64,000 nt of DNA from Mesostigma viride (lineage: Eukaryota > Streptophyta > Mesostigmatophyceae > Mesostigmatales > Mesostigmataceae). Both the position numbers and the translations under genes were made by a program. The stretch spans positions 7,244,750 to 7,308,749 of the forward strand of contig RPFO01000104.1 of NCBI GenBank assembly GCA_009746045.1. The letters run 5' to 3'. Each line of letters opens with the position of its first letter. The first letter of the stretch is position 1. This document shows positions 665 through 62,890 of this stretch, piece by piece. The notes under the pieces are model-generated. The model was not told the DNA's origin. It was given only the letters and a program-made list of their open reading frames with translations, and searched no databases.

Positions 665-9494
<8,830 letters not shown>

Positions 9495-15830: not shown

Positions 15831-18800
15831 ATGGAGGCGGATGGAGGACGTTATGGCCTCAGAAGGCAGAGGCATAAAGAAGGATTCTATTTGGAGGCTA
15901 CGAATGGGCGTTTGGATAACTTTGGGTCTAGATGGACCGATGACGAGGCGGATGAGGAGGAACATGGAGCGAACAATACTAAAGGAACCCGTTTTGGCAA
16001 GGTGCGGAATGTTTTGATTTTCCTGCACGTTCTAGTTTCTCGGCAGATTTCCCCTTCTTGAAAAGTGTCTGTGCTCCTCGTATAAACAAAAGGCAGCCGC
16101 CTTCTAGAGGCCGCACTACATTATCGGTTTGGTTGTGGCTCGATTGTACTGCCGATTTTTATCGTCTTCGACGATGCCACGGGTTGCACATGTCCGTGAC
16201 AAAACGTGTTCGCGTTACTTTTTCTGTTCAAAATTCAGCGTTGACATTATCTGATCCCGGCAGAGGTCGTTAGTAGCCCTTTCGCGCCGCGACGCTTCTC
16301 TACCTTTTCAAGGCATAAGCGCTGCTACTGCGTTCCGTCGTTGTTGCGTTATTTCCACAATGCCCTACCTTGTGTCACTCTGCTAAAAATATATCATGGC
16401 TGGCAGACCAGATTAAATGGGCGCTAGTCTTCTTTCAGTCATCTTAGTTTAATGCTGATTTCATCTTGGTTTCTGAAATGCGGTATCGGGTTCTGAAATG
16501 TGGTTTGTTTTAAAACGGAAACTTTTCTTTTCGGAATTTGAACCATCCCAATGTGCAGCGCACATCGGACGGAGCAGGCTCCCACAGGGTGGAGGAAGCG
16601 GCCGTCGCCGGCCGCATCAAGAAGCGGGCGCGTTCCGTTGGCAATGCGGATGAGGTGCGCAGCCTGTTGACACATCCTGTTGACACAAAGCTGACATCAA
16701 TTGACTTGAGGCCTTTTCCATTGTGGTCCTTTCGTTGCTACGGTTTCGGATACTTGATGCTGGCTGGAAGCATGCCATGCTTTCATATGTTTTTAGTTTT
16801 ATCAGGCATGCATGAAGACTAGAGCCTTTGGGCCCCATGCATCCTTCTGGCAGGACTTCAAAGCTTTCATAACGATCCACCAGGTGGAGCGTTCCACTGT
16901 GCATCAGTTTCAGCAGCTATTGCTGCGCCTCCAATGGCTGCGTCACCGCGGCTCTAATGCCAGCCTATGGCTTCGCAGGGCAACGACTCCTCACCGCATG
17001 GGTAGCAAGGGTGCTGCTTGCCAAACGTGGCTTGTCCATTCACCACCTTTCATCTTATGGTCGGTAGTCCATTTTAAAAAGCTGTCTAGGGGCCCCGGTT
17101 TCTTGCGCTGCCTACTCATCCGTTTGCCTCATTTTCTCTGCACTGTTTGTGTGTGCACTTGAGGCCATGTAGTATGTCAGGTACCTGACCTGACCCTCTG
17201 AATACCTCAACCCCATCAAGACCTCCGCCCTGTTTCCCTGTCTTTTCTCAACACCCCCCCCACACACTTTTCTTCTCCTCCTGCCCCCACTTCCCCCCCC
17301 ACCCCTACCCACACTTGTACAAATAATAATAATCAATAATATCAATCAATTATCTCCACCGTTGCTCTCGAACCTCCCCACAGTACGAGGATGGTTTCCC
17401 TGCGCCGGCCGCCGTCCAGCGCAAGCCCCGCTCCCCCGTGAAGCTGCGGCCCCACCGGCATGGGGCCGCCTCCTCAACACCCGCCGAGGCATCGCCCCCG
17501 CAGGCACCTGGCACATCCGCCGCTGCCGCCAAAGCCATGGACATGGACGTGACGGTTGTAGCGGAGAGTCCTGAGGCCCACCTGGCGCGCGAGGGGAGCC
17601 GGTATGCGCTGCGGCGGGGGGCCGACACGGCTCCCTCAGTGGCAGGTGACCACCCGGTTGGTAGTGATGCGGGGGTCAAGGGTGTGCGGTCCAGTCAGCG
17701 TGGGGTAGGGCATGGCAGGGAGGAGCCAGGTGGGAACGGGGAGGCGGAGGGCGGGGACGGTGTGCAGCATGGGGAGGGCGGGAGGACGGAGGGTGGCGGG
17801 AGTGGGTCAAAAGGGGCACACAGGAGGGGGCACAGCACTGAGGCCGGGGATGGGTTGCCAGAACCTTTGCTGGCAGCACATGAGGGTGGGCATGCGACGC
17901 GGCGCGCAGGCCGCAGGGAGGGGGACAGTCAGGGGCATGAGGGCCAAGGAGATGGCCAGGGGGTGGTTGATGTGGCAGGGAACGAGAAGACTCCACCCGC
18001 ACGGTCCACACGGCGTGGTAGGCATGCGGAGGAGGACGGTCAGGGCCATGAGGTGACTCCTGACACGGGGGGAGAAGGGGCGGGCGGCCGCATCGGCCGA
18101 CGTGGGGACCCGGTTCTGCGTGACGTGGTGCCGGTTGCCAGTGGTCAAGTGGAGACGCGCCGCAGCACACGCAGGAGCGGGTCCGTCGAGCTGGTGGGGG
18201 CTTCCCCCGTGACGGAGGGGGAGGGCCACGCGCACACGCGGACAGGGGAGAAAGGCAAGGGGGTGGAGAGGGGTGGAGTGGGGGGGACGAGGGTCCTCAG
18301 GGGCAGGAACGGGGGCAACGCGGCGACCACTCCGCAGGATGGTCAACTTGGGTCCGGAAAAGATGGGGAGGAAGAGGAAGAGGAAGAGGAAGAGGAAGAG
18401 GAAGAAGATGAGGAGGAGAAGGAGGGTGCGGGCCGTGACGGGAGAAGGGGTGCCCGGGGCGACGCTGGTGGAAGCAAGGGCGGCAAGGTAGGCCGCGAGA
18501 CACGTGCCGGTCCGGGCACGGGCAAGGCCAAGGCCAAGACCAAGGCGAGGGAACTGGGAAGGCACGGCAGGTCCAGCGGTTCTTCCGATGGTGATGAGAG
18601 AGAGGAGGAGGGGGAGGAGGGCAGGGAGGGGAGCGGTGAGCCCGAGGAGAGCCGGTTCTATCGTAGTCTGCGCAGCCGGGCGGTTGCGGCGGGCAGGGGC
18701 AAGCAGTCGGCCTCGGGGCCCCGCGCTTATTCTACGCGCAGTCACAAGGGGGATGCACGCCAGGAGGAAGGGGACGAAGAAGAAGATGAAGAGGAGGAGC

Positions 18801-21800
18801 AGGACAAGGAGGTGGGGGAGGAGGAGGAGGAGGAGGAGGAAGAAGAAGAAGAAGAGGAAGAAGAAGAAGAAGAGGAAGGTGGCAAGGGGAGCGGCCAACG
18901 GCCACGGCGGACTGGCCGGGGGGACCCTGTGCTCCGCGAGGCGATCAACTCCAGGGACTTTGGGCGCTCGACCCGCCGGCCCAACCGCTGGGAGTCACGG
19001 CGCGATGCGGGTAAGGCAGTGGCGCGCGGCGTGGGCGGGTCAACGCGTAGGACCATGGACCCGGTGATACGTGAGGCGCTCGAGTCGGGGCGGGAGATCG
19101 ACTTGCACCCAGGGAGCCCTGGGCGGCGCAGCTTGCGGCGGCGGGGACGGATGGCGGAATCGGGGGAGGAGGAGGATGAGGATGAGGACGAGGAAGGGGA
19201 GGAGGAGGACGAGGAGGAGGAAGAGGAGGAGGAAGAGGAGGAGGAAGAAGAGGAGGAGGAGCGAGAGAGGAGGTATGCACTGCGGCGGCGAACTGAGGTG
19301 CAGCGGTTCTCGCCGGGTCGCCAGATGGCGAAAGCGCAGCGTGAGAAGATGGGGAACCAGATGAGGGGTGGGGGCGGGGGCGGGGGCGGCGGCGGGGGTG
19401 GCAATGGGGCTGGAGGGCGGGGCGCCGCCAAGGCATGGCATCGCGCCAACCGCCGACGTATCATGGGAGAGGAGTCTTCCTCGGGGGAGGACGATATATT
19501 CGCAGAGGCTGGGCCTGACATGCTGGTACCCTGGGATAGGGACGCCAGCCGGCTCCTGGGATCCGCCTCACGGTGGTCCCTGGGTGGCGCGGGTGGTGGT
19601 GACGGCGGTGGGTATAACGGCGGTGGTTCGAACGCGGTCCCAGCGCTCGGCGCCGGTTCTGCGCAGCCGCAGTGGGGCAGCGACAAGGCCCCCGCGGATA
19701 TCCAGCCGGTGGTGGTGGACCCTGGGGTAACGTTTGACAGCATCGGTGGCCTCGCACATCATATCCGCGCGCTCAAGGAGATGGTCTTCTTGCCCCTGGT
19801 GTACCCAGAGGTGTTCACCCGGTTCCACATCGCGCCACCGCGCGGCGTGCTCTTATATGGTCCGCCAGGCACGGGCAAGACGCTGGTGGCACGCGCACTG
19901 GCAGCCTCAGCGTCCAGGTGGGTCGGCTTGTGCAGCTGCTATTGAATCAGTGGGTGGGTGGGTGGTCTTACAGCCGGAAGTGTGTGGGTGGGTGGTGCTC
20001 TCGCTGTACTATACGTAATTGCGCGACGCTGTTACTGAAGTGGCGGTGATCCAGCTTGGCTACTGCGCTGACCTCTGCGTGGCTGGCTGTCAGTAGTTTT
20101 GTCTGAAAATACAATGCCCCTGTGTTGGATCTTCTCACAATGTGACGCCCAACGTATCTCACACAGTAGCTGAGCTGAAGTCCTTCACGGTGTGAGGGAG
20201 TCTTATTTACAATCTGGCCTTCTTGTCATGAATCTTGTGGGCTTTGATGCCCTTGCTTCAATCTGGTAAAGTGTGGCTGTAACATCCTTGCTTCCTTTTG
20301 GGGTCGATTGTAGCTGTCACGCCCTTGCTTCCTTTTGGGGTCGATTGTAGCTGTAACGCCCTTGCTTCCTTTTGGGGTCGATTGTAGCTGTAATGCCCTT
20401 GCTTCCTTTTGGGGTCGATTGTGGCTATAACATCCTTGCTTCCTTTTGGGGTTGATTGTAGCTGTAACGCCCTTGCTTCCTTTTGGGGTCGATTGTAGCT
20501 GTAATGCCCTTGCTTCCTTTTGGGGTTGATTGTAGCTGTAACGCCCTTGCTTCATTTGGCGGTGGCGCGCGGCCTGCTTCCTGTGGGCCACCCCTTCTCT
20601 TTAAATTTTCTCCAGGTGCGGCCAGCCCGTGCGCTTCTTCATGCGCAAGGGGGCGGACGTGCTCTCCAAGTGGGTGGGCGAGGCCGAGCGCCAGCTGCGG
20701 CTGCTCTTCGAGGAGGCACGCCGCCAGCAGCCGTCGATCATCTTCTTCGACGAGATCGACGGGCTGGCCCCAGTGCGCAGCAGCAAGCAGGACCAGGTGC
20801 ACAACTCGGTGGTCTCCACGCTGCTGGCGCTCATGGACGGGCTGGACGCGCGCGGACAGGTCGTCGTGATCGGCGCCACCAACCGGTCAGTGGGGGGTGC
20901 CTACTGGCGTCGCCGCCCGCATAAGCTATAGTGGGCTACTATTGTTGAGGTTCTCGGCTCTACTTTTCAATATTTTTTTTGGCGCTTGAATGGTGTTATC
21001 TGTCCGGTGGCCTCTGTCTGGCGGTGTCACTGCTAATTGAGGCTAGCGTTCCGTCTGTCCGTGTTGCAGAGGACACACACAATACATTGTCTGTGCCTCA
21101 ACTGTACATTCGCGCGAGGTGCTGCCTGGGCATGGCCTGTCAAACCAGCTGGGCATCACCGCGCCAAACGCAGCCGCCGCGGAGTTGGCCCCCAACCAGC
21201 CTGCTTTTTCCACGGTGCATGACCCAACCCAACGCCCTCTCTGTCCACCGCTCAAACCCAAGCCCTTTTCTGGGTGCCACTGCCCAACCTTTTGGAACCG
21301 GAAATTATATTCCTCATGCATTGACATTTATTCTAATGCGAAAATGTTTTTAATCATCCGGTCGCCATGCTGGTTCACCGCATAAACCCAACCGGTTGTC
21401 GGTTCGCCAGCATCGACGCGCTGGACCCCGCGCTGCGCCGCCCCGGCCGCTTTGACCGCGAGTTTGTCTTCCTTTTGCCCGACCGACCTGCGCGCGAGTC
21501 CATCCTGCGCATCCACACCGCCAAGTGGCAGCCGCCGCCCACCCCCGCGCTGCTGGGTGAGCTGGCGGCGCGTGCGACCGGGTACTGCGGGGCGGACCTC
21601 AAGGCGTTGACGACCGAGGCAGCGATACGCGCGCTGCGACGCACGTATCCGCAGGTGGGTTTGGGGGATGGGCGCATACCCTGCAGGTGGGGACGCACGG
21701 CAGCTCACAAATTAGGGACATGCGCGTGAGGCACATACCCGCAGGGGGGGCCGGGGGGTGGGTAGTTCAAGTTTTGGAGGTTTTAGCTTAGTTTGGAAGC

Positions 21801-29108: not shown

Positions 29109-29165
29109 TATCAAGGAGACAACGAGCGCAGGCCAGAAATCAGGAGAATCCGGACATCCATGGTA
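29109..29165 (-). mobile_element. Penelope-like element 3' end, orphan copy
   Basis: On the minus strand this matches the last ~55 bp of the full Penelope-like element at 35480-35531 (core GGCCTGCGCT, ending CTTGATA), with several differences. Only the terminus is present, so it is a severely 5'-truncated or rearranged copy. Confidence 0.7.
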
Positions 29166-29356
29166 ACTCATCATCCACCATGGTAACTCATCATCCATCT
29201 CATGAACTCGGCACAAATCCGGCCACGAGGTAGCCATGGCTGTCGGAGCTCATAACTTTCACGTTTGAGCACCGAATTTAGCCGTGAATATCACTATCGC
29301 TTCGTCTTTCTAAGACGCACATGCTGATATAATTTTCTGAATCTAAAACGCAATAT

Positions 29357-30714
29357 ATGGCAAACAAACGCGCCCCGACGCAACGCAGCCTGGCGGCCGC
29401 GCTCGGCAATGACAATACGTCTGCAGCTCCGGCTGCAGCTTCGCCATCAGGTCCGGCAGGCGGCGATGACACTAGTCGTGCACTGGTGGTCGTCCCGCAA
29501 CCCCCCGGGCTTAACGCCTCGCCATCTGCATCGCCTGACCATAAGCGCACCCGCCCAGCCGACGACACAGGAGGGTCTTCACGCCCCCAATACACAGAAC
29601 CGAGCTTTCGTCCCCGGCCTTTCAAGGTCGCAGATTACGACTGGGCCACCATTTCTCCGACCGATGCTATGCGCTGCATCTTCTTCGGGGATTACGCTTC
29701 GCTTAACGACCTGTGCCTCCATCTCTACTCCACCAACCGCCTCCTCGCCCCGGACGGCAGCCGCGTGGGCAACATCTACCATCTGATCGGCGGCTTCCGC
29801 CCCCATCTCCAGCACGCCATCCTCAACTCCCTTCTCCAGCGCTCTGACGCCGAGATCTGGGCTTCACCCCTTTCCGTCCCCACCCTCCGCTCCATCCTCA
29901 CGGAAGCCTTTCAGCAGCACGTGACCCCCCTTGCTGCCGACATAGCAGCAATCGGCGGCACGCTGACTGCTGAACTTCCTCACATTTCCACCGCCGCCGC
30001 CTCCACCTCCACTGCCATTTCCGCCTCCACTGCCGACATCAAAGCCCAGCTCCTTGACCTCGACCAACGCCTTCAAGCCACCGCCACCGCCCTTGAGAGC
30101 TTGCATGACACCGCCGGCCTCACCGCCCAGGCGGTGAAGGACATCGCCGCCCAGCCGGCGCCTGCTGGCTCGGCGGGCGATGCTCCCTCCACCTGGGCGG
30201 ACTTGCTTAAGCAGCACACCACCTCCACCACCTCCACCATCTCGGCACAACTCAAGCAACAAGCCCTCGACCTTCGCGAGGAAGCCGACATCGCCCGGCG
30301 CAGCCACAATGTCATCGTCAAGCACTTCGACCAGCTGGCAGGTGAGACCTCCACGAGCCTTCTTGAGGCATTTAAGCGCGCCATTCTTGCCCCCATGTTA
30401 CTCACTGGTGAGCTGGACATGTCGGCTGTCCGCCTCCCCCGCGCGCGGGGAAGGCTGGCCCGGCACCCGTGCTCCTCACCTTTAAGTACATGGCGGACAA
30501 GCTGGCGTTCCTTAAATGCCGCAAGAAGCTCTCGGAGACTCGCTTCACGCTGGACGACGACTTGACCCTGGCCCAGCAACAGCGGCGACGCGAGCTATGG
30601 CCGACCTACCTTCAGCTCCGGCAGAGCGCAAGGGGGAAGCCGGTATACTGGAGGGGGGCGGTCATCCACGTTGACCACAAGCCCTGGCAGCCCCCTCCTG
30701 CCACCTCAGACTAG
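29357..30714 (+). pseudogene. LINE-type ORF1 relic, copy 1 (one-base frameshift)
   Basis: A 402-codon frame begins with an Ala/Pro/Ser-rich N terminus, then a conserved block (DYDWATISPTDAMRCIFFGD), then a long Thr/Ala/Ser helical middle (STADIKAQLLDLDQRLQ). The C-terminal block continues in another frame from about 30469 (LTFKYMADKLAFLKCRKKL, then GKPVYWRGAVIHVD, stop 30714). Comparison with the second copy at 44091-45083 shows that a single T is missing near 30450 (GGGGAAGG against GGGGTAAGG), which explains the frameshift. The C-terminal block resembles the RNA-binding ORF1 or ORF1-like proteins of non-LTR elements. That assignment is inference from pattern, not a database match. No reverse transcriptase follows directly. 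Confidence 0.65.
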
Positions 30715-30822
30715 GAATATATATTAATAATATAATTACTTACAGCAGAGTGAAATCACTCAAACCAAAGCAAACGCCCAGCTATAAACCTCTATACAGA
30801 GCCATGTCAAACAGTGTGAGCC

Positions 30823-33730: not shown

Positions 33731-34718
33731 ACCTAAAATCGGTCCGTCCGGTTACATGAGATCCTGGGAATTTTGGCGCGAACGCGTCGCGTTGAGGACG
33801 ACGGGACCAGAAAAATTCCACCTCGCATGGCTGTCGACCCTATGTCCGCCGGAATATCAGTCAAAAGTCAATTATGCATGTTAACCCCTAAATGGGCAGA
33901 AATACTGCCGATGCATCGGCTGTAACTTCACAATTTTGCAAACCAGATGCCATCCAACCCACCCATATCCAATGGCTGTCCTTGGGGGCCAAGCATGTCC
34001 ATGAGTTGCCCTTCGGGTTGGTATATCACAACCTTACATATATGCAGGGTAGGCCATGTATAACTTCCGTCAAAGTCAGGGGGGTCAAGACGAGCGTTTT
34101 CATTTTTGGTAGAATGTGCATTTTGAATTATGTTGTAAGAGCTAGGCACCTACCACTTCAGGGATGATAAACAATTAGTTGCTGAACAGTTTGAGCCATT
34201 GGGGTCATCATTTGGGTGGGTATACCAGCAGTTACACCCAGTACAGCCCATAGGGGTACCGTTGGTAAAAAGCAACCAAGGGGGTAGGAGTGGGCATACT
34301 ATCTACTAATACCTACTAATATGGCCCCCAACCATGCCACACAATACATTTCCCTTCCACAATGATGGGGAAACATAACTGCATCATCACACTGCCCTTA
34401 CATGGCACCTATGTGCAGGTGCCACCTTGTCCATGCACGTAGGTAACGTGGTACGGATACCCTACGCAAGGCATGCATTCTAGGAGGCAGCCACCGACAA
34501 ACTAGTGATTTTAGGCCTATTTCAGCTTGCCCTAGCAAGGATAAACTAGGCCTAAGCTGCTATAGCTTGCCAGGTGATGGCCAGCACACCTGGTGGCACA
34601 TGCTGACAATGGGAAGCTTCTACTCACCGGTTACATGCTTGATGATGCCACAGAGACCAGCCAACTGCCTCACACTCATGCAATATGTGTGTGGGAAATG
34701 TATAACAAACATATATTA
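33731..34718. other. No gene resolved; flank of the Penelope-like element
   Basis: No reading frame is recognised. A motif at about 33909 (GCCGATGCATCGGCTGTAAC) has a relative on the far side of the Penelope-like element near 40894, suggesting that the element sits within or beside an older repeat. Confidence 0.4.
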
Positions 34719-35531
34719 AGCAAAATATGGTGTTGTTCTTTCTCAGTTACATCGTTTTTCCCGTCTTTGTTCTTATCGTGTTGATTTCATCACGACTCTT
34801 GTTGAACTCTTGCAGCGTTTATTGGTCAAAGACTATGACCGAGCCATTATGCTCCGTCAAGTCCGATGTTTTTTGCAACGTCACCCACATCTGTTCGGTG
34901 CTGCCCCTTGGCACAAGCTCTACAAACAGGTCGTGGACCGGCTGGATCGCATAGTATCTCCGCACATCTGAACCCTGTGATGCCAGATCTCCTTTGCGGC
35001 CGTTCCGAGCTTGGCACTGGATTCGTTGTCCACATCGTCGCGTCGCTGCCGCAACACGATGTTTTCTGGCATCCGCGGGCTTTTGGTTCCCGCCGCACAT
35101 TTGAAAGTGCTGTCCTCCGGCTTTTTGCCTTTGCACCGTGTGCAGTTCTTGGACGTTTGGAATCATGGCATGGCTAACGTGATGACTGACTAGCTAGACC
35201 TTTTCAGTGGTTTTCCATTTGCGGGTATTTCCTCGTAAATGGTGGGAGAGCGATCGCAGCAATGGTGCTCACCACTAGACACTCCCGGCCAGTTAGGCTA
35301 GAAACACACGCCCTGATCAAGCATGCTGTTTCCGGCCCCACCGTCTAGGTCATCTAGTCGCTCCACACGTAAGCCAGCCATAATTTCAATGCACAAGGAT
35401 ACACATTTCCATCACCATTCATCTTCATCATCCTGAACGACTCGAAAACGCGGAAAAGATAACGGCAGGCTCGAGCTACCATGGTCCGGATTCTCCCGAT
35501 TTCTGGCCTGCGCTGGTTGTCTCTTTGATAT
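34719..35531 (+). repeat. Left flanking repeat (pseudo-LTR) of the Penelope-like element
   Basis: This 813-bp stretch recurs at 39270-40082 at a constant offset of 4551 bp, and I see no mismatch by eye. It consists of the last ~250 bp of the reverse transcriptase ORF plus the 3' untranslated region. Such a 5'-truncated copy directly ahead of a complete copy is the pseudo-LTR arrangement typical of Penelope-like elements. Confidence 0.93.
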
Positions 35532-36466
35532 TAGATTGGTTGAATATAGTTCGTTTTCGGCTAGGAGGCGTGGCCTTTGCATGACGGGCAAGAGGATTTC
35601 AGCCGTGGGCAACCAAGCACACATGTCGTCGGGCTAGTCCGACGAGTGCGCACGTGAACCGGCACTCCCGGTCACACACGACACCATAGAGATAGTCAGC
35701 TGCACCGCCTCATGTCGGCGAAACCCATAGTTCCATCGGAATCGTTTCAGCGGCCGGCATTTCCTCTCCGCGTTTCCTCAACCTCGTTTTCAGGATCATA
35801 CTCATCGTTCCTGCATTTTCCTCTTCCACGCAGGTTGTGGCTTTTTTGAAAGCCACGAATGTACCCGGGGATGGGACGCTTCGGCTGCCTCAATGCCTAC
35901 ACATTCAATACGATGTCCCCCTCTCACCTTCCTCCATCATTCCGCTCACATTGCACTACGTGTCTGTGTTTTGTTCTTTTTCTTGTTCTCGTTTGTTTTG
36001 CTGTTCTTGTCCTTTTTCTTTTACTTTTACTGAGGGAGCTAGGCTGGGCTGCGCGCTGTGTGTGCTACTCTCGTGTTTTTCTGTGGGCACTTGAGAGACT
36101 AACCAAGGATCGGGCCCCCCACACGGCAATATCAGCCTTTGCTTTTGTTTACCCTCCCATATCTCTTTACAAACGCCAAAAAAACACAAAGGCAGGAGCA
36201 CGGTGACTCATCTGGAACATGAAGAAGGGAAATCTTTTCGTTACAGGAAAGAGGTGTCAAGTATGACAATTGGAAGGCCCCCCCACTGGGAATCCACATG
36301 TTCCGAGTCCATTCAGCTGTGTTGTTAGCCACATCCTGCCCCGGGGAGATGCATCATGGACCACCGCTATCGCGTAACGGGTGTTACGCAGTGAATATTG
36401 ACTTACCTCAATATGCTCCGCTCTGGTTCTGTTTGATGTCTTAGCTCTCAGTGCATCTGAATCATC

Positions 36467-37900
36467 ATGAAACACCTTATGACTTTCTGGCATGCTCTTA
36501 CCCTCCACAGAATACGGCAATCCAGTGGCATTGATTACCGGAAGTACACTGCTATTTCTCGGCAGTTCCCCTATCGTATCTCCTCACAGGCATGGCGGAA
36601 GCGTTGTCGCATCAACACGCGCCATAACCATCACTGCAAGGATGACCATACTCTACGTCGCCTCCGGCGCTTACAGCGCACGCATTTGTCGCTTACCAAC
36701 TCCACTCGCCCACACCCCGTAAGCACCCATCGCGTCATTTATGCCATTTACAACCGCAGGTACCCTCAGCGTATCTACGTTGGCCAGACGCAACGGGATG
36801 CCTGGACGCGTTTTCAGGAACATGTCCGAGCGGCACGCCGCCTTCATATTGGCCGCCCTGCCGCCAACGACGACACCCCCCTACATGGCGCCATGGCCCA
36901 ATACGGGTGGTGGGATTGGCGAGTCGTCCCCTTGGAACATGTCCCCGGCACCTTTACCGGCGCCGCTTTTCGCAAAGCCGCAGGGCATCGGGAAACGTTT
37001 TGGAAACGAATGTTACATGCATTTCTGCCCCACGGTTTTTGCATTGAAGGCAAGAGTTTCAAAGCTCGGTCTCGCCGCCGCCCGCCTCCCCTCCGTCCCC
37101 GCCCTCTTATGTTCATCCGTGCCTGGCGTCTGAAGCACAATCTCCACCCATATCGCCCCTATCCCCCCAGCGTCACCCCGGCCCCTCCACCTTCCACACA
37201 TGTGTCCACCGATCCTTCCCTTTACTCCACCAGTCTCCGCTGCTTACGTCACATGTCTCGGCTTATGCAACGCGGCAACTTTCATGCATCCTATCTCGAA
37301 GCCTGCAGCTTGAAGAAGCTTACCAGCTTACACATTGCCGTCGGGTCGTGCTCCCCAGCTGATCTGCAAGTCCCCCGCTCCCATGCCACTAGTCTGCGAG
37401 GCCTTCTCTCACGTATCATTCGGCACCGTGTCAATGGGAATGCAGATGCACTGCGTCCGCGCCGTTTGCTGATCTCACCTTTCATTCATGCTGCGATGGA
37501 TGAGCTGTGTTTGCCACACATTCTGCATTTGCCGCAAGTGCAGGCTGCGATGCCGCTCGTGGTGCGCAACACTTTCGGCACTCCCATTGCCGCCTGGCAT
37601 TACTCTCCCACCTTGGGACAAATGGTTTTCAGCAACGGGAAGGTCAGCCGCGATACAACGCCCACCGAGCTGGCCACCATCTTGGCAGGGCCCTGCCCCT
37701 GCCAACAACAACGGTATTTCAAGTACCTTGATCCCACCTCACAGCACGTCATGACCGCTGACCTCAGCATCCTGCCGAGCCACACGCTTGTAGACCTTTT
37801 TGCCAAAGGCACCAAGTTTCGGCCGTGGGTCCAGCGCACGTGTGCCAAAGAGGTGAATGCACTGCTCTCCACATCACTGCGCAAATTTGCAATGCCATGA
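36467..37900 (+). CDS. Penelope-like ORF1 with GIY-YIG endonuclease domain
   Basis: 477 residues. After a basic N terminus holding a Cys/His-rich patch (about residues 47-61), the GIY-YIG core runs from about residue 89: VIYAIYN, then RIYVGQT, with the conserved Arg and His in RFQEHVRA, and DWRVVPLEHV further on. The domain would nick target DNA for reverse transcription. The rest is basic, has no domain I recognise, and may bind nucleic acid. The stop TGA overlaps the ATG of the reverse transcriptase ORF by four bases (ATGA, 37897-37900). The start at 36467 is the first Met of the open frame; a later Met cannot be excluded. Confidence 0.82.
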   Translation: MKHLMTFWHALTLHRIRQSSGIDYRKYTAISRQFPYRISSQAWRKRCRINTRHNHHCKDDHTLRRLRRLQRTHLSLTNSTRPHPVSTHRVIYAIYNRRYPQRIYVGQTQRDAWTRFQEHVRAARRLHIGRPAANDDTPLHGAMAQYGWWDWRVVPLEHVPGTFTGAAFRKAAGHRETFWKRMLHAFLPHGFCIEGKSFKARSRRRPPPLRPRPLMFIRAWRLKHNLHPYRPYPPSVTPAPPPSTHVSTDPSLYSTSLRCLRHMSRLMQRGNFHASYLEACSLKKLTSLHIAVGSCSPADLQVPRSHATSLRGLLSRIIRHRVNGNADALRPRRLLISPFIHAAMDELCLPHILHLPQVQAAMPLVVRNTFGTPIAAWHYSPTLGQMVFSNGKVSRDTTPTELATILAGPCPCQQQRYFKYLDPTSQHVMTADLSILPSHTLVDLFAKGTKFRPWVQRTCAKEVNALLSTSLRKFAMP

Positions 37901-39522
37901 GCACGGACCTACAGCTTGCTCCCCTTGCCATGGAACCGTGGTTTCGCGCCGTCATTCACGAATGCAATGCACGTCTCACCAGGCTTGATTACCGTCTCCA
38001 GCAGGTCCACCGCACCACCTGGCTCAACACCACAGATAAAGCACTTCTTGACCACTTCAAGCAGGACTTTATCATCACGTGTGTTGACAAGAGTGCCAAC
38101 AACTTTGCTTTCATATGCAAGAAGCACTACCTTGCTACTTTGCAACACGAGTTGGCGTCCAGCCCTACCTATGTTCAGCGTGCACAGTCCACCGCCAGTA
38201 TCACCGCTGCTCATCGGGCTTTTCTGCACAGCCAAAACATTTTTGCTCGGGCATTCCTTAAGCGGCAGCGACGCGCCACCACCACTACGTTCCCATATCT
38301 GTATCTCACTCTTAAGCTGCACAAAACTCCTGTTGCTTTGCGCACCATTGCTGCGTCGCATTCAGCCCCACTGATGCCTCTCTCGAAACTCATCTGCCAT
38401 GCTTTGAATGCTCTTCTCCCCGAAGCCAATGCATTATGGGTGGAGGTGCTGTCGAATGCCGGGTATGAATGCGCTGGTAGTTGGATCGTCATAGACTCAG
38501 CCCAAGTACGCCTACGCCTTGCCGCCCTTAGCCGTTCTAAGACAGCAGCAGAGAAACGTATACCTATGCCCATAGCCACCTATGATTTCACCACTCTATA
38601 TACCACACTAGATTTGCACGATTTGAAAGCTCGTTTAGATAGCCTCCTTACTCGTCTGTATGCACGTAGGCCTCACGGGCGCAACCACCTGCACGTGCGT
38701 GTTTCTCAGACCAAGCCCACGGCAACGTGGCTCTCAGGGATCGCGGCAGGTGCTATCGTGCGGGATGGTTATAATTATATTATCACGAAGGCTGACCTTG
38801 TCCATTGGATCTCTTATCTTGTTGATAACACCTTCATCTGTTTTGCGGGCAATGTATACCAACAAGCTATCGGCATCCCTATGGGCACTAACTGTGCCGG
38901 GCTCCTTGCAAACCTCTATCTATACACTTATGAGCTTGCATTCATGGAGAATCTCATTGCCTCAAACGATGATGTTCTCATCAGGCGTTTTATCCATACA
39001 TGTCGATACATTGATGATGTCATCGCTTTCGACAACCCTGATTTCGCAACCCATTTGTATATCACCGCTGGTCTGCCTGGCATCTACCCGCAAGCGTCCC
39101 TCACATTAAAGCTCACGTCGGAGGATACTCATTGCAATTACCTCGATCTTAACATTACCCATAACAAGAAGGGCTGGCGTACGGCTATCTATGATAAGCG
39201 CAAGGATCCTAAATACCAGCAAATTCCTTTTATTCGTTACCCCGATATTCACAGTCTCCTTTCCCACACAGCAAAATATGGTGTTGTTCTTTCTCAGTTA
39301 CATCGTTTTTCCCGTCTTTGTTCTTATCGTGTTGATTTCATCACGACTCTTGTTGAACTCTTGCAGCGTTTATTGGTCAAAGACTATGACCGAGCCATTA
39401 TGCTCCGTCAAGTCCGATGTTTTTTGCAACGTCACCCACATCTGTTCGGTGCTGCCCCTTGGCACAAGCTCTACAAACAGGTCGTGGACCGGCTGGATCG
39501 CATAGTATCTCCGCACATCTGA
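37897..39522 (+). CDS. Penelope-like reverse transcriptase (ORF2)
   Basis: 541 residues from the ATG in the ATGA overlap; the open frame extends upstream to 37825, so readthrough by frameshift is also possible. Reverse transcriptase marks in order are LTLKLHKTP, YDFTTLYTTL (motif A, catalytic Asp), QAIGIPMGTNCAGLLANLY (motif B), CRYIDDVIAF (motif C, catalytic Asp pair), then KLTSEDTHCNYLDL and a conserved tail with HRFSRLC. The GIPMGTN and YIDD forms match Penelope-like enzymes and not LTR or LINE types. There is no C-terminal GIY-YIG domain; that domain is in ORF1. The last ~250 bp are duplicated in the left flanking repeat. Confidence 0.9.
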   Translation: MSTDLQLAPLAMEPWFRAVIHECNARLTRLDYRLQQVHRTTWLNTTDKALLDHFKQDFIITCVDKSANNFAFICKKHYLATLQHELASSPTYVQRAQSTASITAAHRAFLHSQNIFARAFLKRQRRATTTTFPYLYLTLKLHKTPVALRTIAASHSAPLMPLSKLICHALNALLPEANALWVEVLSNAGYECAGSWIVIDSAQVRLRLAALSRSKTAAEKRIPMPIATYDFTTLYTTLDLHDLKARLDSLLTRLYARRPHGRNHLHVRVSQTKPTATWLSGIAAGAIVRDGYNYIITKADLVHWISYLVDNTFICFAGNVYQQAIGIPMGTNCAGLLANLYLYTYELAFMENLIASNDDVLIRRFIHTCRYIDDVIAFDNPDFATHLYITAGLPGIYPQASLTLKLTSEDTHCNYLDLNITHNKKGWRTAIYDKRKDPKYQQIPFIRYPDIHSLLSHTAKYGVVLSQLHRFSRLCSYRVDFITTLVELLQRLLVKDYDRAIMLRQVRCFLQRHPHLFGAAPWHKLYKQVVDRLDRIVSPHI

Positions 39523-40082
39523 ACCCTGTGATGCCAGATCTCCTTTGCGGCCGTTCCGAGCTTGGCACTGGATTCGTTGTCCACATCGTCGCGTCGCTGC
39601 CGCAACACGATGTTTTCTGGCATCCGCGGGCTTTTGGTTCCCGCCGCACATTTGAAAGTGCTGTCCTCCGGCTTTTTGCCTTTGCACCGTGTGCAGTTCT
39701 TGGACGTTTGGAATCATGGCATGGCTAACGTGATGACTGACTAGCTAGACCTTTTCAGTGGTTTTCCATTTGCGGGTATTTCCTCGTAAATGGTGGGAGA
39801 GCGATCGCAGCAATGGTGCTCACCACTAGACACTCCCGGCCAGTTAGGCTAGAAACACACGCCCTGATCAAGCATGCTGTTTCCGGCCCCACCGTCTAGG
39901 TCATCTAGTCGCTCCACACGTAAGCCAGCCATAATTTCAATGCACAAGGATACACATTTCCATCACCATTCATCTTCATCATCCTGAACGACTCGAAAAC
40001 GCGGAAAAGATAACGGCAGGCTCGAGCTACCATGGTCCGGATTCTCCCGATTTCTGGCCTGCGCTGGTTGTCTCTTTGATAT
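39270..40082 (+). repeat. Right flanking repeat (3' end) of the Penelope-like element
   Basis: The second copy of the 813-bp repeat at 34719-35531. It covers the end of ORF2 and the 3' UTR, ending GGTTGTCTCTTTGATAT. The sequences beyond it differ from those after the left copy, marking the element end. Confidence 0.93.
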
Positions 40083-42240
40083 ATGGAGGTATTCAAACCC
40101 ATACAGCCTCTAAAACTTATCACCATCACCCTGTGGCAGGTCAACTGACTGAGGGAAGCATCTAAGAAGGGTGTTTTAGAAAGGGGCCAGGCCAGGGTCA
40201 AGAAAGAGCATGAATATTGCAAAAAGAATGTGCTACACAAACTAGAACGTATATATAAACGTCAAATATCGATTGGAAAACGATAACTCAGCTTTACCAT
40301 GCATGGATGGCGTTACCTTGGCCCAGGCGGTGGCCGCAAAATGGCGCATTTCGGCACACCAAAGTTGTGCAGCATGGTCGCTGGATTCGGCGATTTCTGG
40401 CCACCCTTGCACGTTTACGACTACCATGTATCATAAAAAGTACAAAGAAACCAATATATCCTTTAAAATACGCCGGAAAGGTATTGCTGTCAACGTTTCT
40501 ATCGTCCGGCCTGATCGCAGTTTTTTCCAGCAAGAACGCTGCCGACACCTATCAAATGGCATTCCCGCGAACCAAAAATTGGCCTGTATCATCTTTAGGA
40601 CGTATAAAATCAATTTCCTGAGTTTGGTCAGAAAATTCGAACGAAAACGTAAATGCCATGCGTGGGCGCAAGCCGCCATGGCCAGGTCGTCGTTTTCCGG
40701 AATGCACGTTGTACGTGAAAAAGTACCCTGACCCCTAGTACTTTGACCGGCCAGAACACCTCTATAACTTTGTCAGAAGTATGCAAACCCTAGTACCATG
40801 CTGTGAGGAAAATTATAAACTTTCGATCTTCTCAGCTAAACGTTTCCTAATTCTCAATAGTTTTCGCGGCATTTGGTCCCCCGAGAAGGGGCCGACGTGT
40901 CGGCTGTAACTCAGTTTTAGGCGGAAAATCGGCAGCCAGACCATTTAGGGGTTAAGTCGCTGCGATGGATGCAAACGACGCGTAAACTCTCCTGCTTTGC
41001 GATGATGCATGGTAGATATTATTCGCGTATGTTCATGCGTCAAAATAATTCGCAAACTGAGACGCTGATTTTTTGTGTCGGCCTGATCTGGAAATGGCAG
41101 CGAAAATGCATGTTTATTAATTGTGGGGGAAACTTTTTTGTTGCAAGCTCACAATTCCCAAAAGGTGGGATCCGAATGGGCTTCAAGTCTACTTTCACGA
41201 GCGCTAATCAGTTTTTCGAGAAACGAATCACATTTTCCAGGCTGTCGCATTACCTGCCGGCAGGTCAGATTTTGCTGTTTTCAGTGACGTTTACGACCGT
41301 CCTTGCTTGATGCGTTTCTTCCTTTTTTTCGGCTCACGGCATGGCGGGGCTTGTTCCAACATGCCTGCGGAGGTGTAAGCTGTGTAGCCATGATTTAAAA
41401 GTCACATATTGCTCTCGCGCCACCATCTGTTACTGCTCGACACTGCAAGAAACACTGGTTGCCTGCTCGCAACGCAAGCACAAGCACGACAACGGTGCCC
41501 TAATCCACATCCAGGCGTGTATTTCCGAGAAAAACTTCAGGCTTTTGTCGCAGCATACCTTCGGTGTTCCAAGCCGTTCACCGCTCCCCGAAATAGTCTT
41601 ATGACTCGCTTTTATAGCATTGTGGGTTCGCGTCCGCCATCTCCGCCGGGTGCTGACACGAGATGTTCGCGCTGAACCTGGACTGCAAGGTCGCCCGCTA
41701 CCGGTTAGCTGTACGTATTTAGCAAGCTCTGGATGATATTGTCATGGTTTTGGTGCAGGAAGGTGCTGTGGGGGGGTCTATCTCACCTCTTTACCTAGCT
41801 TTCCTCCTCCTAGCTTGACAGCTAAGTTTGCATCAGGAAGTCATGCTTACAAGTTGACAAAGCTCGATGGATGTCAACCTTGGGATGTGCTGTGAAGGTG
41901 TTAGCATGCTTGCTTGAAGAATTGAATGCGTATGTGTGCAAGCCATGGACATTTGTTTTTAAGGGCAGTAGGTAGCAGCCACGTTCTTATTCAATTGTGT
42001 CAGGATGTCTATGTTGCCTTTACTGCACTCTGTCCTAGAGGAGTTTGATGCCACTGTAGATGACTATGACCAGTGGGGTGGTGAGGATGGGCCGGTGTGC
42101 TGGGGTGAGCCTGAAGGGCACCTTGGATCTCACGTGACCCTTAGGCAATCATGCCAGGCTGTGCAGTTTATGGCTTGTGATGTATGGATGCAGCGGGTGA
42201 GGCAGGTTGTCATTGCCGTGGCCTGTTGTTAATTCACTCA
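40083..42240. other. No gene resolved
   Basis: Unrecognised sequence downstream of the Penelope-like element. A 75-codon open frame at 42005-42232 (acidic start, FDATVDDYDQWGG) has no family I know and no supporting context. Confidence 0.4.
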
Positions 42241-44090: not shown

Positions 44091-45083
44091 CTAGGAGTGC
44101 CATGTCTTGAAAGGTTTGTACCCGGACGGCCGCCTCTGGCGACACCTCACCCTGCTGCCCGGTACGTGCACCCGCCCCGAACTCCAGCACGCCATCCTCA
44201 ACTCGGCCTTCTCCAGCGCTCCGACGGCGAGATCTGCATGGGCTCCATCCATCACCGCCCCCACACTTCGTTCCATCGATCCTCGCGGAAGCCTTTCAGC
44301 AGCACGTGACCCCCCTTGCTGCCGACGTAGCAGCAATCGGCGGCACGCTGGCTGCTGAACTTCCTCACATTTCCACCACCGCCGCCTCCACCTCCACTGC
44401 CATTTCCGCCTCCACTGCCGACATCGGCAGCCCAGCTCCTCGACCTCGACCAACGCCATCAAGCCACCGCCACCGCCCTTGAGTGCTTGCATGACACCGC
44501 CGGCCTCACCGCCCAAGCGGTGAAGGACATCGCAGCCCAGCCGGCGCCTGCTGGCCCGGCCGGCGATGCCCCCTCCACCTGGGCGGACTTGCTTAAGCAG
44601 CACACCACCTCCACCACCTCCACCATCACGGCACAACTCAAGCAACAAGCCCTCGACCTTCGCGAGGCGGCCGAGCTCGACAAGCGCAGCCACAATGTCA
44701 TCGTCAAGCACTTCGACCAGCTGGCAGGTGAGACCTCCACGAGCCTCCTTGAGCGCCATTCTTGCCCCCATGCAACTCACTGGTGAGCTGGACATGTCGG
44801 CTGTCCGCCTTCCCCGCGCGCGGGGTAAGGCTGGCCCGGCACCCGTGCTCCTCACATGACGGACAAGCTGGCGTTCCTTAAATGCCGCAAGAAGCTCTCG
44901 GAGACTCGCTTCACGCTGGACGACGACTTGACCTTGGCCCAGCAACAGCGGCGACGCGAGCTATGGCCGACCTATACCTTCAGCTCCGGCAGCGTGCAGG
45001 GGGGAAGCCGGTATACTGGAGGGGGGCGGTCATCCACGTTGACCACAACAAGCCCTGGCAGGCCCCTCCTGCCACCCCAGACT
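44091..45083 (+). pseudogene. LINE-type ORF1 relic, copy 2
   Basis: Matches the relic at 29357-30714 from about its middle to its C terminus (HDTAGLTAQAVKDIAAQPAP, LDMSAVRLPRARGKAGPAP, KPVYWRGAVIHVDH). It keeps the bases lost in copy 1 at the frameshift but has other breaks: a short deletion before LTFKYM and frameshifts in the middle and near the end. A retroelement 3' UTR follows at once, with no reverse transcriptase. Confidence 0.7.
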
Positions 45084-45580
45084 AGGGAATATACCAGTAG
45101 TGTAGATTAGATAGGCTTAGCCTTTGCAAGTGGCCCACGCGCATGTGCGCCCATAATGGCCCCCATGGATGATGCTTTCAGTATTTAGCCGCGCCCAGCC
45201 CACAATGGGACCTCCCATGGATGATGCATTAAGAATTTAGCCATGTGATGCCTATAGGGAGTTATATGCAGGGAGTTACTCTCTGCTGAGATGCCATGTG
45301 TACACCAGCTATAGCCTAGCCACATACCCTCCACCCCATATGTCATGCAGGCCTTCTAGGCCCTCTCGATCCTCAAGCCCCCCCTGGGTGCCTGTGCTTG
45401 TTAAGGAGGCATGAACCATCATGGCGGTGCAGGTGCACCTTGTGCACCCAGAGCAGGTGATAGATCCTCCACCTGCATGCAGGTTGTAGCCCTGATTGTA
45501 TTACAAACCCATAGATGCCCCTTTCTCAGGGCTATGTGTTACATATGCTCCCAACGGAGCTATGATTTTAATTAATGGTA
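45084..45580 (+). mobile_element. Retroelement 3' UTR following the ORF1 relic
   Basis: Directly follows the ORF1 stop and matches 33145-33595. It ends with CTCCCAACGGAG and a TAATTAA tail, after which an inverted Penelope-like 3' fragment begins. Confidence 0.7.
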
Positions 45581-45584
45581 ACTC

Positions 45585-46012
45585 GAGCCTGCCGTTATAT
45601 TTTCCGTGTTTTCAAGTCGTTCAGGATGATGAATTATAGTAGTATGAATGGAGATGGAAATGTGTAGCCTTGTTCATTAAAATTATATGGCTGGCTTATA
45701 CGTGAAGAGCGACTAGATGACCTAGACGTCGGTGGGGCCGGAAACAGCTAGTTGCTTGATCGATGAGCTAGGGGGCCCATGTGTTTCGATCGAGCCTAAC
45801 TGGCCGGGAGTGTCTAGTGGTGAGCACCAATGCTGCGATCGCTCTCCCACCATTTACGAGCATAAACGTACAGGCAAATGGAAAACCACTGAAAAGGTCT
45901 AGCTAGTTAGTCATTACGTTAGGCATGCCATGTTTCCAAACGTCCAAGAACTGCACACGGTGCAAAGACAAAAGTCCGGAGGACATCACTTTCAAATGTG
46001 CGGCGTGAACAA
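45585..46012 (-). mobile_element. Penelope-like element 3' end, diverged inverted copy
   Basis: On the minus strand this matches the 3' UTR and end region of the full element (about 35090-35480) with many substitutions and small indels. It lies between two retroelement 3' tails that point inward. Confidence 0.8.
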
Positions 46013-55071: not shown

Positions 55072-56383
55072 GCGGCGTGACGAGCAAGAGGGTTAGTCCA
55101 TGGCAAACAGAAGCGCGGGGAAACATGCAGGGACAGGAAGTGCCAGGAAAGGGATGTTTTAAACAACAAGCACTGCGTGCTATACACAACTGTGCGTCTT
55201 TCCAACTCAGTGCACACCGGAGCTTGGGCTACATCCAGTGGATGAAAGCCTGCCCAGCTGAGCTCGAAACACTACGCAAAAAATTTTAGAAACTGGACTT
55301 CAGCCCGGCTGCCCAGACGAGAATATTGGCGAATTGGAACTCTCAAGGTCCTGGCAGGTGCCTATGCTGAGTTGGCAGAGAAAGGGTCCCACCGATGAAT
55401 AAGAATTCAATGCTACTGACCGGTGGAAGGGACAAGAAGAAGGCAGTTGGGCGTGAGGGCCGGGAAGGCGCGGGGAGGGACTTTCAGGTAAGTGAGGACG
55501 GTAGCGACGAGTACAAGGGGCATTCGTCTAATTTTACCTGAATGTATCCCGGATGATCAAGCGACCCGGAGCTGACAAAGAAAGCTCGCTACAAAAAAAT
55601 ACCGACTACCTGTTGAAGGACTGCATATACGCGTGTCGGGACTTGCCTTCAGCGCCGAATGCGAAGACGCCATATGCGGGGACAGCTCGATAGTCGCCAT
55701 CGCCGGGCTCAGCACAGGAGCTTTAGAAATAGCGGCCTGAGTTGGACATTTTCAGCACGTAAAAATCAAATAATGCAACGACTTCGTTATTTCCCATCTC
55801 TATATTGAATGTTGAAACTGACATTTTGAATACCACAATTATAAGACTATGAAATCCTGGTGCATAAATCGGACGTCACTGAGTAAAATACCAGGAGAAT
55901 ATTAGGATAATTTACCTTCATGATTGCCGACGAGGAAACTTCTGCGATGATCCAAAATCCTTCGGTACACGGGCAGAAATGCAGCAGACTGCCGAGAGCG
56001 AAATTCCAGTCACTCGCCCCCCGGAAGCAACGAAAAGGAATGCACGCCGTGGGGATTTCCCGGGATTTTGTCGTTGCTCCCGCCAGTCTCATATCGATCC
56101 CGTTACGGAATACTGACGCACGCGAGATCTTTCGCGGAGTGCTGGCTGCTGGCGCGTTGGCAACTTGGAATGCCTCATCTTGTTCAGTCTGATTATGGTT
56201 GCCTAAAGGTTGCGCGGTACGGTAGATTTCCGTCTTCCGATGTTCCGAATATCCAAGTAGCTTTCATGGAAGGACGGTAACTCAATTCATAACTGAATTC
56301 AAATTTTCAAACGGGCCGCGCGTTCATCATGCAGGGTAATACATAAGATACATAAGGACTGTGAGATACAAAAACCCTAGAAA
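55072..56383. other. Spacer upstream of the unrecognised gene
   Basis: Likely includes the promoter of the minus-strand gene starting at 54936. No gene is seen on either strand up to the left end of the Mutator-like element. Confidence 0.5.
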
Positions 56384-56598
56384 GGGTTTTTGGAAATCGC
56401 ACCCGGTGCTGGGCGCACCCGATGACAGATGACAATGACGAGAGGCTACGGTACGCGTCGATAAATACGGGTAACGCTTGTGAAAGGAACGGTGTGGGCT
56501 GATAAATACGGGTAACGCTTGCAGACGCGGCGGCATGAGCCGGAAACATTGTGATCAGGGACGAAACGAACGGAAAGCGCAGCCTACTGGCTCATACT
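56384..56598 (+). repeat. Left terminal inverted repeat of the Mutator-like element
   Basis: Inverted relative of 62140-62354, containing the doubled word GATAAATACGGGTAACGCTTG. The inner boundary is after CTCATACT. Confidence 0.88.
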
Positions 56599-59448: not shown

Positions 59449-59523
59449 ATATTTCTTGATCAACGCATCTCTCGATCTCTGGCCTGCGCTGGTTGTCTCC
59501 TTGATATTTCTTGATCAACGCAT
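59449..59523 (+). mobile_element. Micro-insertion of a Penelope-like 3' end with 20-bp target duplication
   Basis: A 20-bp sequence (ATATTTCTTGATCAACGCAT) occurs at 59449-59468 and 59504-59523. The 35 bp between them are the last bases of the Penelope-like element (CTGGCCTGCGCTGGTTGTCT within them). Just upstream, at 59433-59446, the target carries TATCAAGGAGACAA, the reverse complement of the element terminus. Confidence 0.8.
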
Positions 59524-62139: not shown

Positions 62140-62354
62140 AGTATGAGCCAGTAGGCTGCGCTTTTCGTTCGTTTCGTCCCTGATCACAATGTTTCCGGCT
62201 CATGCCGCCGCGTCTGCAAGCGTTACCCGTATTTATCGGCCCAGACCGTTCCTTTCGCAAGCGTTACCCGTATTTATCGACGCGTACCGTAGCCTCTCGT
62301 CATTGTCATCTGTCATCGGGTGCGCCCAGCACCGGGTGCGATTTCCAAAAACCC
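62140..62354 (-). repeat. Right terminal inverted repeat of the Mutator-like element
   Basis: Reverse complement of 56384-56598 with a few substitutions. Confidence 0.88.
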
Positions 62355-62890
62355 GTTAGAAAAACCTGTAAAAACTAATAATAAGAACTGAGAGAAGCTC
62401 AAGTGCAACAAATTGAAAGCGATTCAGCAATCAGCATGCCTAAACAGCCACTTATTAGTCCCGACATACAGATAGCAGACAAGTGGCAGGTGATAAGCGG
62501 ATGTTAAAAAACGTTGCTCTCTGGCCATAGGAACGGTGCGCGGTGGCCCGATAACTCGGTATAGCAAAACTCGCATCTCAAACTGATGAATGGAAATGCA
62601 AACGTTCACGTGAAATCACGCCCGCTGTCCTCTGCCTGAGGCAACCTTCAGCTCTCAATTGAGGGACCACGTCGTGACGTGATCCGGTATGATTTGAATT
62701 CAACATGTAAGCCGCACACCCAAAGAATTTCTCCCCGGTGCATAATATAAACCTTTCTCGCTGACTGATGCCTAAGCTACCCACATGGGTGGAGCTATTT
62801 CCTGCGGTCAGCCAAAGTACTCTAATTGGCAGCATTTGCTTCCAAAATGCAGCGTTAGCGCGTTAGCGTCTTCCACGTAACCTGGTCATC
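62355..62890. other. Spacer, no gene resolved
   Basis: No supported coding sequence; possible promoter of the ORF starting at 62891. Confidence 0.4.

Follow-up and report, generated by a model that had tools for sequence, protein, structure and literature searches.

An apparently young Penelope-like retrotransposon family with a nuclease-first layout in Mesostigma viride

Introduction

Two direct repeats of 813 bp enclose two overlapping open reading frames (ORFs) in a stretch of 64,000 nucleotides from Mesostigma viride (assembly GCA_009746045.1, contig RPFO01000104.1, positions 7,244,750 to 7,308,749, forward strand), which is referred to here as the window. An initial annotation, made from the sequence alone, described the segment from 34719 to 40082 as a young Penelope-like element (PLE) with its GIY-YIG nuclease domain in front of the reverse transcriptase (RT). 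PLEs are a rare kind of retroelement, with reverse transcriptases that are related to telomerase. The locus raises the question of what kind of element is bounded by these repeats, how recently it has moved, and whether the copy in the window is intact. It is very probable that the unit is a young Penelope-like retrotransposon, amplified in recent times and carrying its GIY-YIG nuclease at the N-terminus, that the window copy is a split variant of it, and that the family moves by a cycle as proposed below.

Structure of the element

The initial annotation had described the flanking repeats as free of visible mismatches, and this was confirmed, with exact coordinates, by a base-by-base alignment: 34719–35531 and 39270–40082 differ at no position, and the match is not extendable by a single base at either end. 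As residues 459–541 of ORF2 were mapped by tblastn to 34720–34968, the upstream repeat includes the end of the RT frame. The window element is a complete unit (35532–40082) that is preceded head to tail by a second, 5′-truncated copy. The following features were assigned:

34711–34716, plus strand: candidate left target-site duplication (TSD) ATATAT; low-complexity and tentative for the window copy alone
34719–35531, plus strand: upstream 5′-truncated second copy, forming the 5′ pseudo-long terminal repeat (pseudo-LTR); 100% identical to 39270–40082, covering the final 83 ORF2 codons together with the 3′ tail
35532–40082, plus strand: full-length element unit, 4551 bp; ends set by array junctions and by 96 exact junctions genome-wide
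36467–37900, plus strand: ORF1, 477 residues, nuclease domain and linker; called as an open reading frame
36737–37054, plus strand: GIY-YIG nuclease domain, ORF1 residues 91–196; TIGR01453 and PF01541 matches
37897–37900, plus strand: ATGA, in which the stop of ORF1 overlaps the start of ORF2; arises from a one-base length difference in the window copy
37897–39522, plus strand: ORF2, 541 residues, putative Penelope-type RT; TIGR04416 match and 54% identity over 50 residues to a decayed RT
38791–39042, plus strand: core of the RT (ORF2 residues 299–382), containing the motifs GIPMGTNCA and YIDD; TIGR04416 match
39270–40082, plus strand: 3′ pseudo-LTR, the 3′ end of the full unit matching the upstream repeat in the pairwise repeat comparison
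40079–40084, plus strand: candidate right TSD ATATAT; overlaps the 3′ end of the element and is tentative

The start and end of the unit carry an uncertainty of about one base, with the terminal AT(A) possibly being derived from the target. Arrays on other contigs consist of units of 4552 bp arranged head to tail, which identifies the segment 35532–40082 as the unit. Two consecutive full units were found on each of the contigs C1542, C307 and C1853, being 0, 1 and 1 differences apart, respectively, while on C1901 a truncated unit is followed by a single full one. As the left flanks of C1542 and C307 are identical, these two may be a single locus that was assembled twice. An exact match to the 35-base head-to-tail junction occurs at 96 places in the genome.

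The left side was read for 11 insertions, namely the window copy and ten plus-strand loci chosen from the 30 loci that were fetched from the assembly. Seven of them consist of a 5′-truncated copy followed by a complete copy, with the upstream copy starting at unit position 3356, 3589, 3739, 4054, 4170, 4434 or 4441. The other four are single 5′-truncated copies, which start at unit positions 45, 262, 532 and 789. As the start of the upstream repeat differs from insertion to insertion, the repeats are pseudo-LTRs. Pseudo-LTRs have been described in PLEs as the product of a full copy lying beside a 5′-truncated tandem copy (PMC8969392).

Protein domains

ORF1 matched the NCBIfam model TIGR01453 (group I intron endonuclease) with an E-value of 0.006 for the whole ORF and of 0.0008 for the domain piece. 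This model is presumably of the GIY-YIG type, and the same domain piece matched Pfam PF01541 (E = 0.025). Residues 299–382 of ORF2 matched the RT model TIGR04416 (E = 9e-6). With whole ORF1 and ORF2, Pfam yielded nothing at E ≤ 1. A search of PHROGs with pieces of the ORFs gave a single RT match (E = 0.024) and none for the nuclease, and a PDB sequence search hit Defense-associated reverse transcriptase 1 weakly (E = 0.0099), with the rest at chance level. Weak as they are, the profile matches are consistent with each other and place the nuclease upstream of the RT, as had been annotated.

The motifs KLHKTP, YDFTTLYT, GIPMGTN and YIDD of ORF2 are ones that we take to be of Penelope type. Together with the tandem anatomy, these motifs rather than a tree suggest that the RT is of the Penelope type. 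The permuted, nuclease-first layout that had been claimed holds for the order of the domains within the unit and for a copy at another locus (L013), in which a single frame of 1018 residues runs from the N-terminal nuclease through the end of the RT; the window copy, by contrast, is split into two frames. Among the 80 places scored in the genome search described below, 43 list 1020 codons from stop to stop.

Copies in the genome

The host assembly comprises 440 Mb in 2243 contigs. It yielded 33 matches to PF00504 (chlorophyll-binding proteins), and the one protein inspected among them is presumably LHCII-like, which would make the host probably a green alga. A pattern search for 18S rRNA gave no match. 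With the RT of ORF2 as query, 2489 candidates were obtained genome-wide, and the best 80 of them, which were scored, were all 100% identical to the query. All 30 fetched loci, the window copy included, were 99.8–100% identical to the window copy in their longest alignment, which for several 5′-truncated loci covers a shorter stretch. For the 21 loci that cover ORF1, mean pairwise divergence was 0.029% over 3.6 kb, with 72 of the 210 pairs being identical. An older piece is represented by an additional alignment of 233 bp at 92% identity next to one of the fetched loci (L009). Numerous copies are located deep within contigs of several megabases.

Judged by these identities, the family is very young and recently amplified. 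The suggestion of the initial annotation that the element is young and possibly active is borne out insofar as the near-identity of the family, pseudo-LTRs without mismatch, target-site duplications and the many exact junctions make recent activity probable. The family may still be active.

The split reading frame

The ORFs of the element had also been described as open. This is literally correct for the window copy, but its two ORFs are a single gene cut by a one-base difference, and the window copy is not intact. ORF1 and ORF2 lie in different frames and overlap as ATGA. The cut results from a one-base difference in run length near 37.88 kb and is shared by seven other fetched copies (8 of the 29 loci holding the site). 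Exact patterns found 15 split and 75 unsplit places (90 in total), which puts the window copy in the minority. Copies that carry further differences close to the site escape this count, and a place scored as unsplit need not have an open frame over its full length.

Only one length variant was found across 44 other runs of 4–6 bases, with 21 to 30 loci read per run, and a few other small indels are present among the fetched loci. Two variable sites close by define four single-nucleotide polymorphism (SNP) backgrounds on which the split form was found. As each of these is also found unsplit, the change must either have recurred or have been exchanged between copies. Three split loci, including the window copy, are identical over 3686 bp and have different flanks, which indicates that split RNA was copied. 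The simplest reading is that the spread of split copies relies on help in trans from unsplit copies.

Alternatively, the split form could be functional by itself, with ORF1 being translated, the ribosome stopping at the ATGA and restarting for the RT, so that a fused and a two-protein form circulate together. Re-initiation at the ATGA is possible, and several observations would agree with it: the form makes up 15 of the 90 exactly matched places, it is found on four SNP backgrounds that also exist unsplit, the 44 other homopolymer runs show a single length in the same loci, and the stop codon overlaps the start codon exactly. In addition, a complete tandem 5′ end was found at 12 of the 15 split places versus 37 of the 75 unsplit ones (Fisher p = 0.045), but this p-value is marginal and comes from an unplanned test. 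The unsplit form is, however, five times commoner, the ATG of the overlap is present inside the long frame as one of its codons, and a broken copy mobilised in trans, combined with template switching between copies, would account for the same facts. A self-sufficient split form is therefore considered unlikely. Slightly less likely again is the fuller proposal of one family that exists simultaneously in a fused form and in a two-protein form, the latter arising by a one-base switch with re-initiation at the ATGA, being mobile alone and held at about one-sixth of the copies. Codon usage after the junction does not help with regard to a frame switch, as the ORF2 frame does not stand out. Frameshifting at a slippery heptamer was considered as well and rejected, as the only such heptamer found near the ORF1/ORF2 junction is in the wrong frame.

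If the split form were an error of sequencing or assembly within a homopolymer run, a one-base length change appearing on several SNP backgrounds would fit. Yet the 44 other runs are uniform in the same fetched loci and the split change recurs at 15 places, which makes such an error improbable, more so than a split form acting alone. Mobilisation of the split copies in trans remains the preferred reading.

Comparison with other retroelements

A genuine LTR retrotransposon, or a different retroelement with LTRs of 813 bp, is suggested at first sight by direct terminal repeats without mismatch, but this is rejected with near certainty because the length of the repeats varies between copies, and further because they include the end of the RT frame, whole units occur as arrays and family scans of the ORFs gave neither an integrase nor a protease. 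Pseudo-LTR tandems, 5′ truncation and short, variable TSDs, as present here, are traits of PLEs.

Elements of the Chlamys group occur in green algae and protists, those of the Naiad group are PLEs of invertebrates, and nuclease-deficient telomeric PLEs carry names such as Athena and Coprina. Nuclease-first PLEs with “permuted domains” from the “green lineage” were reportedly described by Craig and colleagues in 2021. The layout found here fits the Chlamys/Naiad clade, a putative membership based on layout rather than on a tree. With Chlamys elements the family shares the position of the nuclease before the RT, a single ORF in intact copies, pseudo-LTR tandems and 5′ truncation, and probably also a host of the green lineage. 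It differs from them in that no hammerhead was found and in having a split ORF1/ORF2 form, and the two are likened by layout, not by tree.

Relatives of the RT were detected by a codon scan for GIPMGTNCA among prokaryote genome contigs, which matched two contigs. One of them, a contig from a bin of a Bathymodiolus symbiont, contains a decayed RT (positions 3246–3582, minus strand) with 54% identity over 50 residues and 42% over 33 residues to ORF2 (E = 3e-18); the other matched over 31 residues at 58% (E = 3e-6). The Bathymodiolus contig is probably DNA of the mussel, the host animal, within the symbiont bin. If its RT is of the Naiad group, then the GIPMGTNCA motif and the identity of 54% over 50 residues are points of likeness to Naiad; the contig is broken, though, and no nuclease was found in it. 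The first scan of prokaryote contigs gave no relatives, and neither did peptide and protein searches of viral contigs and phage records. A further candidate (L051) was discarded as a chance match on the opposite strand of a frame of 523 residues. Within the host, two patterns, both narrow, revealed no other family of the clade with a different motif or codon.

The Chlamys group has also been reported in Ectocarpus (PMC12477816). Penelope of Drosophila virilis, PAc of Anolis and Pen of Adineta are described as having a GIY-YIG nuclease, an RT, pseudo-LTRs, short TSDs and 5′ truncation (PMC3846280, PMC11167929). The Penelope/Poseidon clade, as described there, thus shares with the present family the nuclease and RT, pseudo-LTRs arising from partial tandems, short TSDs and 5′ truncation. 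In PAc and the Penelope/Poseidon clade the nuclease is, however, C-terminal (PMC11167929), whereas here it is N-terminal, with the nuclease match lying upstream of the RT. The telomeric or Terminon PLEs are described as having an RT unit without nuclease and as being largely limited to chromosome ends (PMC3846280, PMC6431247). They are similar in the kind of RT and in their head-to-tail arrays; unlike them, as far as these descriptions go, the family here has a nuclease, TSDs and many copies deep inside contigs. The element is accordingly regarded as a new family of an already known kind of PLE. No publication on this family turned up in searches that targeted the kind of element rather than the host.

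Target sites and proposed mechanism

A TSD of at least 6 bp was found for 13 of 23 junction pairs versus 14 of 506 mismatched control pairs. Eleven of the 13 duplicated words start with AT and adjoin the 3′ end of the element, CTCTTTG (CTCCTTG in one case). This 3′ end is common to the copies, including two fragments elsewhere in the window (29109–29169 and 59468–59507), the second of which has a duplication of 19–20 bp.

Another piece of the element in the window, an old tail fragment at 45575–46010 (minus strand; 85% identical), lies between the arms of an inverted repeat with an AT-rich centre. One young copy (L006) sits in an apparent relative of this inverted repeat, which suggests a preferred target. 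Three further loci (L003, L011 and L027) have similar flanking repeats, with the element joined at the same target word, and a site preference within another repeat family is possible.

The mechanism of PLE transposition is described as relatively little known (PMC11167929). For the present family the following cycle is proposed. Intact copies would encode one protein of 1018 residues comprising nuclease, linker and RT. The nuclease would nick the target DNA, mainly at words starting with AT(A), and the nick would prime reverse transcription from the 3′ end of the RNA (…CTCTTTG). The RT would then proceed towards the 5′ end of the RNA, with frequent early stops leaving 5′-truncated copies. On reaching the exact 5′ end, for which a fixed transcription start is a plain guess, it would jump onto the 3′ end of a different RNA molecule, continuing there until it stops. 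Such a jump would leave a complete copy preceded by a truncated one and thereby create the pseudo-LTRs, and integration would yield variable target duplications of about 5–20 bp. Split RNA would be copied to new sites as well, most likely by proteins of unsplit copies. The arrays on C1542, C307 and C1901 begin at their upstream side with a truncated copy followed by a full one, an order that fits synthesis from the RNA 3′ to its 5′ end followed by a jump to the next RNA; C1853, whose upstream side is cut by the contig end, is uninformative on this order. The template jump itself is inferred from this arrangement.

Several points weigh against this interpretation. The 80 scored places are biased towards young copies, being the best of a far larger set of candidates. 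The E-values of the domain matches are weak, and all three (TIGR01453, PF01541 and TIGR04416) fall under the curated cut-offs. Ten of the 23 insertions have no TSD of at least 6 bp, and six pairs (L010, L017, L025, L032, C307 and the piece at 29109) share only 2–3 bp, the same level as the mean of 3.0 bp in the mismatched-pair control. Since the element's own 3′ end finishes in AT(A), it is in part ambiguous whether the initial AT belongs to the duplications. The proposed scheme does not explain the 3′-truncated unit at the end of the C1542 array. Finally, no Rfam match of any kind, ribozymes included, was obtained at the gathering score in the whole window, and the hammerhead core CTGANGA does not occur on the sense strand of 34301–40600. 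Hammerhead ribozymes have been described from the terminal repeats of other PLEs (PMC11167929, PMC6431247), but they are not regarded here as a requirement for membership. None of the three Rfam matches with E-values up to 10 within 34400–40500 is a ribozyme. A stem-loop resembling that of histone 3′ untranslated regions was seen at 35839–35856 (plus strand; 16.5 bits), at chance level (E = 1.5).

The 96 exact tandem junctions, the near-identical copies and the clean TSDs at many of them define both termini of the RNA template and the direction in which the tandems form. This makes a nuclease-first family well suited for examining template jumping as well as the movement of split copies in cis versus in trans.

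Other features of the window

The segments 29749–30721 and 44121–45093 are copies of each other with about 90% identity and presumably represent a look-alike of the ORF1 region of a long interspersed nuclear element (LINE). A pair of inverted repeats of 218 nt at 56381–56598 and 62140–62357 is 98% complementary and has simple repeats inside; a piece within this pair is presumably similar to the zinc finger of a MULE transposase. An open frame extends over 17333–19945 (plus strand), the end of which presumably resembles the beginning of an ATAD2/Yta7-like AAA ATPase.

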